Origin: Alphaproteobacteria bacterium
GTDB lineage: Bacteria; Pseudomonadota; Alphaproteobacteria; Micavibrionales; Micavibrionaceae
Reading direction: 5' to 3'
Length of the DNA stretch: 49,121 nucleotides
Assembly (NCBI GenBank): GCA_023150415.1
Contig: JAKLKY010000012.1
Span: 1-49,121 of the forward strand
This document shows, one piece after another, positions 14,924-36,081 of the stretch (the stretch's first letter is position 1; every line of letters begins with the position of its first letter). The notes under the pieces were generated by a model. The model had not been told where the DNA came from, did not search any database, and saw only the letters and a program-made list of their open reading frames with translations. The position numbers and the translations under genes were made by a program.

Positions 14924-15036
14924 TGTGGATAGTATTTGCGACTCGCAGGTTTTGTTGACGATTCGCAAAACGCTGGTGTAGCCTAGCAAAGAGTCAAGTC
15001 TTGCGATCCTGAATCATCATAATCTTTCACCGATTC
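14924..15036 (+). promoter_or_regulatory. dcw promoter region with five GANTC (CcrM) sites, DnaA-like box and inverted repeat
   Basis: GANTC sites start at 14940 (GACTC), 14960 (GATTC), 14991 (GAGTC), 15011 (GAATC) and 15032 (GATTC), with start-to-start spacings of 20, 31, 20 and 21 bases, close to whole helical turns. TGTGGATAG (14924-14932) matches the DnaA box at eight of nine positions on the minus strand. A candidate sigma-70 promoter is TTGACG (14955-14960), 18-base spacer, TAGCCT (14979-14984). Arms TTTGCGACTCG (14935-14945) and CGATTCGCAAA (14959-14969) form an inverted repeat, one mismatch, over the -35. No GTGGG-type MraZ boxes are seen. Confidence 0.7.
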
Positions 15037-15052
15037 CTTTTTCATTATTGTC

Positions 15053-15991
15053 ATGCCTCATCAGCCTGTTTTGCTTGCCGAAGTATTGGATGCGCTCAAA
15101 CCTGTGGCGGGCTGCATTTATGTTGATGGTACGTTTGGCGCGGGCGGCTACAGCCGCGCGTTGCTGCAGGCCGCGCCCTGCCGCGTCATCGCTATCGACC
15201 GCGATCCCAGCGCGGCGGCATATGCCGCAAAACTCGGCGCGGAATTCGGCGCGCGCTTTGTGTTCATGCAGGGCTGCTTTGGTGATGTCGAGGATCTGCT
15301 GCGTAAGGCAGGATTTTCCAAAGTCGATGGTTTTGTGTTGGATCTTGGTGTGTCGTCAATGCAGCTCGACGAAGCGCAGCGCGGCTTTTCCTTTCGTTTC
15401 GATGCGCCGCTTGATATGCGCATGGACCCAACCAGCGGTCAAAGCGCTGCTGATCTCGTTAACACAGCCAATGAAAAGACGCTGGCCGATATCCTCTTCC
15501 AATATGGCGAGGAACGCGCCTCGCGCCGCATCGCGCGCAAGATCATCGAAATCCGCAAATCCGCGCCCATCACCACCACCGGCGCACTGGCCGATCTGAT
15601 CCGCGCCGTTGTGTCGCAATCCTTCAAGGACAAAAGCGATCCAGCCACGCGCAGCTTCCAGGCGCTGCGCATCGCGGTGAATGACGAGCTGGGAGAGCTG
15701 CGCCGCGCGCTGGGCGCCGCGCCGCGTATCCTCAGACCCGGCGGCCGCTTCGCCGCAGTGAGCTTTCATTCGCTCGAAGATCGCCTCGTAAAGGACTATC
15801 TCAAAGACCACAGCGGCCGCGCGGAGTCCGGCTCGCGTTACCGCCCGCAAACGCAATCCGCGCCGGCGTTGTTTGTGGTGGAGAATGCGCGCGGCGTCAC
15901 GGCAAGCGCTGAAGAAACAAAAGCCAACCCGCGCGCCCGTTCGGCGCGATTGCGCTGGGCGGTGCGGACGGAAACGGAGGCAAGCGTATGA
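15053..15991 (+). CDS. rsmH: 16S rRNA (cytosine(1402)-N(4))-methyltransferase
   Basis: S-adenosylmethionine-dependent enzyme that methylates C1402 of 16S rRNA at the ribosomal P site. The 312-residue protein begins MPHQPVLLAEVLDAL, with the SAM-binding YVDGTFGAGGYSRALL (about residues 23-38), AIDRDPSA, the family signature VLDLGVSSMQLDEAQRGFSF (about 96-115) and the C-terminal PGGRFAAVSFHSLEDRLVK (about 228-246). It is the first gene of the dcw cluster here because mraZ is missing: only about 200 non-coding bases separate it from rnpB. The stop overlaps ftsL (ATGA-type, 4 bases). No clear ribosome-binding site precedes ATG 15053. Confidence 0.97.
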   Translation: MPHQPVLLAEVLDALKPVAGCIYVDGTFGAGGYSRALLQAAPCRVIAIDRDPSAAAYAAKLGAEFGARFVFMQGCFGDVEDLLRKAGFSKVDGFVLDLGVSSMQLDEAQRGFSFRFDAPLDMRMDPTSGQSAADLVNTANEKTLADILFQYGEERASRRIARKIIEIRKSAPITTTGALADLIRAVVSQSFKDKSDPATRSFQALRIAVNDELGELRRALGAAPRILRPGGRFAAVSFHSLEDRLVKDYLKDHSGRAESGSRYRPQTQSAPALFVVENARGVTASAEETKANPRARSARLRWAVRTETEASV

Positions 15992-32770: not shown

Positions 32771-32803
32771 TTTAACACGTCCCCTTTAACACTGTTTGGC
32801 TTG

Positions 32804-34102
32804 ATGCTAAAACATAAGCCCATGACTCTCCGCCTGAAGCAAAAAAATCTTCCCAAAGGTGCTGTGCTGGCCGCGCTGGACATCGGCTCCAGCAAGGTAG
32901 TCTGTTTCATCGCCCGCGTGAGCGACGATCAGGGCGGGCTGGAGGTTATCGGCGTGGGGCATCACCCTTCGCGCGGCATTAAGAACGGCACCATTACCGA
33001 TCTGGACGCGGCTGAGGCTGTGATCCGCCAATGCGTTCACGCGGCGGAGAACATGGCATTAACCATTATGAAGGGCTATCCGCTGCGCGAGGTGATAGTG
33101 AATCTGCCAGGCATTCATGCGCTCTCGCACGGGCGTAGCGTCGATGTGCAGATCGCCGGGCACGCCGTTACGGATAATGATTTGCGCCGGGCGCTGGCCC
33201 GCGCGCAGCAAGATCTGGTGACGCCACAGGCCGAGCTGGTGCATACGATCGGCGTGAACACCGCCATCGACGGGCATGAGGGGATTCACGAGGCCCGGGG
33301 TATGTATGGCGGCGAGCTACGCATGGATATTCATCTGGTGACGGGCGATCAGGCGGCGCTGCGCAATATCGCGGCCAGCGTTGGGCGCTCGCATCTGGAT
33401 ATTGACGCGTTTTGTTTGTCCTCATACGCCGCGGGTCTTGCCACGCTGGTGGAGGATGAGATGGATCTGGGCTGTACCGTCATTGACATGGGCGGCGGTA
33501 TTACGTCCTTCGCCGTGTTCCAAAATGGGGCGATGATCTATGCTGACGCGGTGCCGCTGGGCGGCAAGCACGTCACGGCGGATATTGCCAGCGGTCTGAC
33601 CACCAGCATTGAAGACGCTGAGCGTATCAAGAAATTCTACGGCAGCGCCTTGGCCAGCGCCATGGACGGGGCGGAGCTGATTGACGTGCCGCGTGTCGGC
33701 GAGGGTGACCGGCGCGCGCCCAACCATGTGCCGCGCACGGTTCTGGTCGGGATTATTCAACCCCGGCTGGAGGAGATTTTTGAAATGATCCGCCACCGCC
33801 TGGCCGAGAGCGGCATCGAAAACGCGCAGGGGCGGCGTTTGATCCTGACCGGCGGCGCGTGCCAGCTGACCGGGATGCGGGATCTGGCCACGCATGTGAT
33901 GGATTCGCCGGCACGGCTGGGCCGTCCGATTCGCCTTGCAGGCTTGCCCGATGCGGTGGCGACCCCAGCGTTCGCAGTGGCTTCAGGCTTGCTGACCTAT
34001 CGCGCCGCCCGCGCCGAGGAAATGCCCGCCGCGATTCTGGCGCAGGTCACGCCCGCCAATCTGTGGGAGCGCCTGAAAACATGGCTGCGCGAGAATTGGT
34101 AA
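32804..34102 (+). CDS. ftsA: Cell division protein FtsA
   Basis: Actin-like protein that tethers FtsZ to the inner membrane; about 432 residues. Phosphate-1 motif LAALDIGSSKVVCFIAR (about residues 21-37), phosphate-2 TVIDMGGGITSFAVF (about 225-239), the adenosine motif LILTGGACQLTGM (about 347-359) and the C-terminal amphipathic membrane anchor ending LKTWLRENW. ATG 32804 is preferred; ATG 32822 is possible and TTG 32801 is in frame. ftsZ follows after a long non-coding region rich in regulatory sequences. Confidence 0.95.
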   Translation: MLKHKPMTLRLKQKNLPKGAVLAALDIGSSKVVCFIARVSDDQGGLEVIGVGHHPSRGIKNGTITDLDAAEAVIRQCVHAAENMALTIMKGYPLREVIVNLPGIHALSHGRSVDVQIAGHAVTDNDLRRALARAQQDLVTPQAELVHTIGVNTAIDGHEGIHEARGMYGGELRMDIHLVTGDQAALRNIAASVGRSHLDIDAFCLSSYAAGLATLVEDEMDLGCTVIDMGGGITSFAVFQNGAMIYADAVPLGGKHVTADIASGLTTSIEDAERIKKFYGSALASAMDGAELIDVPRVGEGDRRAPNHVPRTVLVGIIQPRLEEIFEMIRHRLAESGIENAQGRRLILTGGACQLTGMRDLATHVMDSPARLGRPIRLAGLPDAVATPAFAVASGLLTYRAARAEEMPAAILAQVTPANLWERLKTWLRENW

Positions 34103-34105
34103 AAC

Positions 34106-34259
34106 TTATCCACAACCATTTGATTCGGTTGAAATTGACTCTCTTGCATGGTGGTCCGAATCGGGTGTGGCAAAAAATCATGAGTCGGATGAATCACTTA
34201 CAGCTTTTATTTGCCCTGCGGTTTCTGTGCTGTTAGGCTGGTGAAAGGATTTATCAACA
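34106..34259 (+). promoter_or_regulatory. ftsZ upstream region with five GANTC sites and DnaA boxes
   Basis: TTATCCACA (34106-34114), four bases after the ftsA stop, is a perfect DnaA box; TTATCAACA (34251-34259) differs at one position. GANTC sites start at 34122 (GATTC), 34137 (GACTC), 34158 (GAATC), 34182 (GAGTC) and 34191 (GAATC): five in 74 bases. TTGACT (34135-34140) is a possible -35 overlapping the second site. In Caulobacter, ftsZ transcription depends on DnaA, CtrA and CcrM methylation with GcrA; the same logic is inferred here. The remaining leader up to 34389 contains no gene. Confidence 0.75.
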
Positions 34260-34389: not shown

Positions 34390-36081
34390 ATGATTAATAT
34401 TCGTATGCAAACTAAGGACGATCAAAAGCTCTCGCCCAAGATCATTGTGATCGGCGTTGGTGGGGCTGGCGGAAATGCCGTGAATAATATGATCGCCTCG
34501 AATCTTGAGGGCTGCGAATTTCTGGTCTGCAACACCGACGCGCAGGCGCTGGCCAATTCACTGTGCCCGAACCGGGTGCAGCTGGGTGTGCATGTGACGG
34601 GCGGGTTAGGCGCGGGATCAAAGCCCGATATCGGCCGCGCCGCGGCTGAGGAGTCGCTGGAGGAAGTGCTGCACTATGTTGAAGGTGCGAACATGGCCTT
34701 TGTCACGGCCGGTATGGGTGGCGGTACAGGCAGCGGCGGGGCGGAAGTCATCGCGCGCGCCTGCCGGGAGCGCGGTATTCTGACGGTTGGTGTTGTGACC
34801 AAACCGTTTCATTTCGAGGGCACTCACCGGATGCGCATCGCCGAGAACGCAATCAGCGGTTTGCAGGATCAGGTGGATACGCTGATCGTTATTCCGAATC
34901 AAAATCTTTTCCGCATCGCCAATGAAAAGACAACGTTCGCCGAAGCGTTCCGCATGGCCGACAGTGTGTTGCAATCTGGTGTGCGCGGCGTGACGGATTT
35001 GATGGTCCGTCCGGGTCTGGTGAATCTGGATTTTGCTGACATCCGCACCGCCATGAGCGAAATGGGCAAGGCCATGATGGGCACCGGCGAAGGCACGGGT
35101 GAGCGCCGTGCGATCGAGGCCGCCGAGGCTGCGATTAATAACCCGCTGCTGGACGATGTATCGATGAAGGGCGCGCACGGTGTCATCATCAACGTCACCG
35201 GCGGCTACGACATGACGCTGTTCGAGGCGGATGAAGCCTGCAACCGCATCCGCGATGAGGTCGATCCCGATGCCAATATCATCTTCGGCGCGACCTTCGA
35301 TGAGAGCCTGGAAGGCGTGATGCGTGTTTCGATCGTCGCCACCGGCATCGACAAGGAGAACTTCAAAAAAGGCCGCATGAATGGTGGCAAAGGGGTTCTG
35401 GAGCGCGCCAAGCCGCAGACCTTGCAGGCTGAGAATAATGAACAATCGGCAGTTCCTGCCATTCCTGTGGTGCCGCCCTATCATGCGGCGGCCCGTACGG
35501 CAACGCCGGTTTCGTCGGCTGCGGCCGCTATTCGCGGTATTACGGCCCCCGTTGCGCCTGGCCCGGTCACCAACCAGGTTGTCCAGCCCAAAGGCCGCGA
35601 CCCCGAGCCGGAAGCCGATCTGTTCGAGCAAAACGCGTTTTCAGCCCCTGGCGCATCCTCTGCGCCTGTCCGTAACACCGCCATGCGCGGCACGCGTTAT
35701 AATGATTCCTTCATCCCGCCGCGCCCGATTGAGGCCGCGACTGAGGATCGTTTTGTTCCGCCTTTTGCCACGCAGACAGCCAGTTTCCAAAGCAAGGCTC
35801 CTGGTGCGGAGTCATCTGCGCCGCGTGAACATGCGCCGCCTGTACCCGTATCGCGCCGCCGCTCGCCTTCGCTGTTCGAGCGTATCACCGGCACTGTGCA
35901 GCACCATCTCGACTCCTTCCGCGAGGAGCATGAGCAGCGCCATCACCACCCGGCATCCGCTGGGCCTTTGTCGGCGCCCGCACGCAAGGGCAACGCGATG
36001 GAAGCGCCTGCGGCCAAGCCACGCGCGGCCACCGATGAATCGCTGGATATTCCGGCTTTTCTTAGACGTCAGGCGAATTAG
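34390..36081 (+). CDS. ftsZ: Cell division protein FtsZ
   Basis: Tubulin-like GTPase that forms the division ring; about 563 residues from ATG 34390 (GAGGG upstream; the longer frame from 34291 has no family sequence). GTP-binding: [19 protein letters not shown] (about residues 15-33), then the tubulin signature [16 protein letters not shown] (about 113-128), which in most FtsZ proteins reads GGGTGTGAAPVIA, so here Thr to Ser, Ala to Gly and Pro to Glu. The T7 loop [11 protein letters not shown] (about 212-222) has the catalytic acid. A linker of about 200 residues rich in Pro and Ala, long as in other alphaproteobacteria, leads to the C-terminal peptide [11 protein letters not shown] that binds FtsA. 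The 3' end overlaps a convergent hypothetical gene by 20 bases. Confidence 0.96.

Follow-up and report, generated by a model that had tools for sequence, protein, structure and literature searches.

Control of ftsZ by GANTC methylation is known from Caulobacter, where methylation directly activates ftsZ transcription and cells without CcrM are rescued by raised ftsZ expression, according to PMC3973325; the same paper describes CcrM control of ftsZ and mipZ in C. crescentus (citing Gonzalez and Collier 2013) and lists ftsZ in both the CtrA and DnaA regulons. GANTC methylation has little effect on ftsZ in Agrobacterium (PMC11514494). GcrA has been described as a dimer with affinity for methylated promoters (PMC3667746); at methylated GANTC promoters it binds and brings in RNA polymerase (PMC3667746, PMC7403470), and an extended motif, YGAKTCG, has been given for GcrA-sigma70 promoters (Haakonsen et al. 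2015, as described in PMC7987155). Comparative genomics of GcrA regulon rewiring in Caulobacterales inferred ftsZ and ctrA as lineage-dependent GcrA targets by scoring single extended GANTC sites; no paired element was found in the accessible text of that work (PMC7987155), and a term search of its text returned neither ftsB nor dnaB.

The ftsZ promoter in the window (the whole 49,121-nucleotide stretch analysed here) resembles that of C. crescentus in its GANTC sites and its link to division, but differs in that a conserved 20-bp pair of sites with a TTAG flank stands at set distances from a DnaA box and is common to ftsB. In the available part of PMC3973325, ftsB was not seen among the CcrM-controlled essential genes of Caulobacter, and the literature searched yielded no paper on paired GANTC elements and no description of one joined to a DnaA box and common to ftsZ and ftsB. 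GANTC control of ftsZ as such is already known. The features concerned are collected in Table 1.

Table 1. Genes and regulatory features of the ftsZ and rsmH regions (window coordinates)
Feature	Position	Strand	Remark
rsmH (mraW)	15053..15991	+	TIGR00006
CTATCCACA, DnaA-like box before rsmH	14924..14932	-	relatives have degenerate counterparts only
Five GANTC sites before rsmH	14940..15036	.	arrangement unlike that at ftsZ
TTGACGATTC, -35 box fused to GANTC, rsmH promoter	14955..14964	+	CGATTCG fits the GcrA motif YGAKTCG
ftsA	32801..34102	+	Pfam FtsA, NCBIfam TIGR01174
TTATCCACA, perfect DnaA box	34106..34114	+	conserved in family gaps
GATTC, lineage-specific GANTC	34122..34126	.	no site at a matching position in relatives
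GACTC, lineage-specific GANTC	34137..34141	.	no site at a matching position in relatives
GAATC, lineage-specific GANTC	34158..34162	.	no site at a matching position in relatives
GAGTCGGATGAATCACTTAC, paired element	34182..34201	+	consensus YGARTC-RNWW-GARTC-RYTTAG; contains GANTC sites 4 and 5
TTGCCC, proposed -35	34211..34216	+	inferred from the alignment; TTGNNN at +29 of the pair in closest relatives
TAGGCT, proposed -10	34234..34239	+	inferred from the alignment; TATGCT, TAGACT, TAGGAT in relatives
TTATCAACA, second DnaA-like box	34251..34259	+	one mismatch; not conserved
ftsZ	34390..36081	+	ATG at 34390; TIGR00065 above cut-off

The gap between ftsA and ftsZ contains five GANTC sites within 74 bp (34122-34195; starts at 34122, 34137, 34158, 34182 and 34191) directly preceded by a perfect DnaA box, TTATCCACA, both as the initial annotation had it. 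Under a first-order Markov model of the gap, the probability of at least five GANTC in 74 bp is 1e-4, and the cluster before ftsZ is real and beyond chance. Background statistics were taken from a 431-kb sample of the same genome, in which GANTC occurs at 2.23/kb and at least four sites per 100 bp are found at just five places, three of them within coding sequence, the only non-coding ones being the ftsZ and rsmH promoters. Two of the three coding clusters consist of in-frame CTGAGATTC-type repeats, in genes that look like argS and ubiE (L230, 10835-10884; L233, 6200-6278). The suggestion that the number of sites is unusually high did not survive comparison, as relatives' gaps hold 0-7 GANTC with a median of 4, which makes five ordinary for the family (Micavibrionaceae), and site number was dismissed as a conserved feature.

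Family ftsA-ftsZ gaps carry 12.8 GANTC/kb as against 2.2/kb in the genome sample, and PMC3973325 describes GANTC as depleted genome-wide and enriched intergenically in CcrM-bearing Alphaproteobacteria. Both observations would suit an ordinary Caulobacter-like enrichment at cell-cycle promoters, with no special element and with the five-site cluster as a statistical extreme. We consider this explanation improbable: enrichment cannot alone yield the fixed 9-bp spacing, TTAG flank, directional centre and restriction to ftsZ and ftsB described below, and it is contradicted by the reversed-pattern control of the ftsZ-derived search.

Of the five sites, the pair at 34182 and 34191 is kept in relatives, whereas the other three are not and are lineage-specific additions. 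This emerges from ftsZ loci sampled in 80 named Alphaproteobacteria and in as many as 58 genomes from the family and order to which the window belongs. Among relatives the fixed part consists of two GANTC with starts 9 bp apart, then TTA and mostly G, and a composite element, TTATCCACA followed by the directional pair GARTC-N4-GARTC-RYTTAG, is kept in at least 24 genera; the window copy of the pair, GAGTCGGATGAATCACTTAC, scores 24.1 bits against the model. Over 23 loci, mean pairwise identity between genera is 0.78 at the element's 20 positions and 0.31 in the flanks, which are saturated, the former value being inflated since loci were chosen by the GANTC pair and TTA, with the free positions conserved too. 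Of the 90 half-sites in 45 collected copies (a set that includes three judged chance or belonging to a different gene), 89 have A or G as the central GANTC base, and G follows TTA in 35 of the 45 copies, TTA itself being fixed by the collecting pattern. Because A or G at this base was a condition for collecting the ftsB copies, the ftsZ set provides the free test, and here A or G occupies 41 of 42 half-sites. This bias goes beyond mere tolerance of GANTC and suggests that a protein probably reads one strand at the pair. One decayed ftsZ copy (L085) retains a single GANTC. The composite element exists and is under selection.

The perfect DnaA box is present in 19 of 20 resolved family ftsA-ftsZ gaps, compared with 3 of 65 in other Alphaproteobacteria. 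As at a DnaA-controlled promoter, TTATCCACA is conserved in place, and its distance to the pair falls into fixed classes: 65-68 bp in 19 loci, 76-77 bp in three (76 bp in the window) and 85 bp in a single locus; intermediate distances do not occur. These classes are consistent with helical-turn steps, just four loci departing from the main class. GANTC in the promoter region, as at CcrM-controlled promoters, is likewise found at ftsZ. The second DnaA-like box that had been noted at 34251, TTATCAACA, is indeed present with one mismatch, but relatives have no equivalent at that place; it was rejected as a conserved element and is probably incidental.

Downstream of the pair, a putative ftsZ promoter can be placed by a consensus reading of the alignment, with predicted -35 and -10 boxes separated by 17 bp in the window and 17-18 bp in the closest relatives. 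The GANTC pair would then sit approximately 45-65 bp upstream of the proposed ftsZ transcription start, like an upstream activator site. In more distant genera a -35/-10-like pair precedes the element instead, and the geometry of pair and start may vary across the family. It follows that in some genera the element could be transcribed, and many copies read ATGARTC, which would place a possible start codon inside the pair; the element might work at the RNA level, or encode a leader peptide in the ftsZ transcript, rather than serve as a protein-binding site in DNA. We regard this as very improbable and set it aside because the ATG is not conserved, being replaced by AAG, TTG or TAG in several genera; moreover, ftsB has the same element some 110 bp upstream, in a different setting, and the fixed letters of the element are CcrM sites.

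A search of 38 genomes with the ftsZ-derived pattern gave 28 matches, against 0 with the reversed control. Eleven of these are ftsZ promoters. Of the other 17, 14 lie before a gene of roughly 103 codons, at a distance of about 80-220 bp; Pfam identifies it as DivIC (FtsB) in a member tested, and the next gene, at loci that include it, is pdhA. A sequence-only model, R1, built from 42 copies and run on 58 genomes at E<0.01, returned 54 matches, of which 24 are at ftsZ, 27 at ftsB and three elsewhere; most are training sequences, and by our own count 9 of the 12 non-training ones are at ftsZ or ftsB. The three elsewhere lie upstream of gcrA, near rplU and within a coding sequence. The gcrA match (G024) looks real, as does a weak ccrM match (G042), each being a single case; the matches in G035 (near rplU) and G048 (coding sequence) were judged chance. 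Within the family the element is common almost only to ftsZ and ftsB, a distribution over two genes that is observed directly. Decayed ftsB copies with a single GANTC occur at L186 and in the window's own genome, whose ftsB promoter carries GAGTCGTTTGAAGGGGTTAG.

A second sequence feature accompanies many ftsB promoters. In a dozen genera, GTTC-N7-GTTC (or GTAC), the form of the alphaproteobacterial LexA box, follows the ftsB GANTC pair by 7-8 bp; it is found in the ftsB promoter of the window's own genome (L191, 1349-1363; G000:C22), at L115, L116, L117, L119, L122 and L128, and at the ftsB promoters L135, L170, L171, L178, L184 and L187. SOS control of ftsB through this predicted box is possible.

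The exact pattern is rare in the class as a whole: 387 genomes gave 19 matches outside the family versus 8 for the reversed control. Those outside the family include matches upstream of ctrA in three genomes and of dnaB in one, the identities resting on response regulator/CtrA-like and DnaB N-terminal domains in the genes scanned. Two families of the order, f3 and f5, keep GcrA and CcrM yet give almost no good R1 match. The paired element was also seen in other settings. At L274, L280 and L283 (position 1500) it occurs with a TTGACTA...TATTATA-like promoter before an NPPY-motif, methylase-like gene, whose first 120 residues gave no Pfam or NCBIfam match. At L266, L267, L268 and L272 (around 1500) it lies about 10 bp downstream of TGTGGATAAG, and in L266-L268 the surrounding DNA is non-coding, rich in GANTC and close to an ELM1-like gene. 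The exact pattern at L271 (1500, reverse strand) comes just before an IS5-like transposase gene and is possibly a terminal repeat.

The gene with which ftsZ shares its element is ftsB, in a different operon, rather than rsmH. The initial annotation had assigned the same architecture to the rsmH and ftsZ promoters; this was rejected, as the pair model gives no match at the rsmH promoter, where the GANTC sites are arranged otherwise and the DnaA-like box is degenerate. Instead, rsmH has TTGACGANTC, in which the -35 box and a GANTC are fused; it is present in 6 of the 7 genomes without mraZ there (window included), with box-like TGTGG sequences of uneven quality upstream. GANTC methylation could still control rsmH and ftsZ jointly, though not by way of one shared architecture. 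With respect to the GcrA-sigma70 motif of PMC7987155, the rsmH promoter sequence TTGACGATTCG fits YGAKTCG, in a family where GcrA is near-universal, whereas the ftsZ/ftsB pair has R and not K centrally, two sites 9 bp apart and the TTAG flank, and at ftsZ lies upstream of the proposed -35. In most of the family rsmH directly follows mraZ; in the window and its nearest relatives there is no mraZ directly upstream of 15053. MraZ is an unlikely reader of the pair, as the window's subclade has no mraZ before rsmH yet keeps the element.

Of 58 relatives, 55 have GcrA and 56 a match to the CcrM-type RAMA domain. In the window's own assembly (G000, 92.5% complete), gcrA, ccrM and era were not found. 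Since era adjoins gcrA in 5 of the 6 relatives' loci inspected and is missing too, an assembly gap is the simplest reading for gcrA, and its true loss from the species was not concluded. The parallel drawn previously with Caulobacter control by DnaA and CcrM/GcrA is supported in part, by the conservation of the DnaA-box/GANTC region across genera and the presence of GcrA and CcrM-type proteins in nearly all relatives, but with both genes missing from the own assembly its trans side is taken from those relatives. In the window the first half-site, TGAGTCG, fits YGAKTCG; the family consensus is YGARTCR, with GAATC (not GAKTC) commonest.

In the family, upstream regions of gcrA (L155, L156, L157, L159, L160, L162 and L255) carry a TGTGGATAA DnaA box and usually several GANTC, and dense GANTC clusters lie before ccrM at L223 (480-720) and L225 (560-700), the latter with a weak paired-element match. 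At L236 (around 5851, minus strand), TTCACGAATC occurs 31 bp before a gene that by eye resembles a GapR-type nucleoid protein (DUF2312).

It is possible, if rather doubtful, that the pair is the operator of another transcription factor, one that binds the direct repeat GARTCRNNT-GARTCRCTT plus AG, with GANTC partly coincidental and CcrM at most modulating. Such an operator would account for the strong preference for A or G at the N position and the asymmetric TTAG flank, for decayed copies that drop one GANTC while the remainder persists, and for the several genomes with GcrA and CcrM but without the element. Against this, the four fixed GANTC letters are kept at both half-sites in all aligned instances (which were collected with a GANTC pattern), the extra-family targets ctrA and dnaB are cell-cycle genes of the GcrA/CcrM type, and no candidate factor was found.

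We give slightly better than even chances to a replication-linked division switch, in which the pair would be read by a cell-cycle regulator in a methylation-dependent way, with DnaA acting upstream. As to the reader, the methylation and the timing, we infer the following. The pair is a candidate binding site at which regulator binding may depend on methylation of both adjacent GANTC, and the leading candidate for the reader would be GcrA, a recruiter of sigma-70 RNA polymerase that responds to CcrM methylation. Passage of the replication fork would leave both sites hemimethylated, shifting ftsZ and ftsB output together, and DnaA bound upstream could add an input from replication initiation. 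That the targets outside the family, ctrA and dnaB, are cell-cycle genes counts for a GcrA/CcrM switch. Counting against GcrA are the A or G at the centre (89/90), which exceeds what plain GANTC needs, the difference between the published YGAKTCG and the pair consensus, and the missing element in some families bearing GcrA and CcrM; the TTAG flank is absent from the published GcrA motifs found. The decayed copies with a single GANTC, and the failure to find gcrA and ccrM in the window's own assembly, also weigh against this reading.

An arrangement of this kind has a counterpart in Escherichia coli, where SeqA and paired GATC provide two methylation sites about one helical turn apart, a possible site for a reader of hemimethylation. 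The likeness lies in the spacing of the pair; methylase, site and organism differ. More tentatively still, with the balance somewhat against it, the pair may form a dedicated division switch, where a regulator (a GcrA dimer or other protein) responds to the combined methylation state of two CcrM sites spaced by one helical turn, tying ftsZ and ftsB, in different operons, to fork passage, and where the element also serves ctrA and dnaB in distant Alphaproteobacteria.

How division is linked to replication in bacteria is a long-standing question. A 20-bp element with an invariant core and two methylation sites, confined to ftsZ and ftsB in one family, offers a testable handle on the timing of division, and as a search pattern the element may be used to find the reader protein and to trace the rewiring of the cell-cycle circuit among Alphaproteobacteria.
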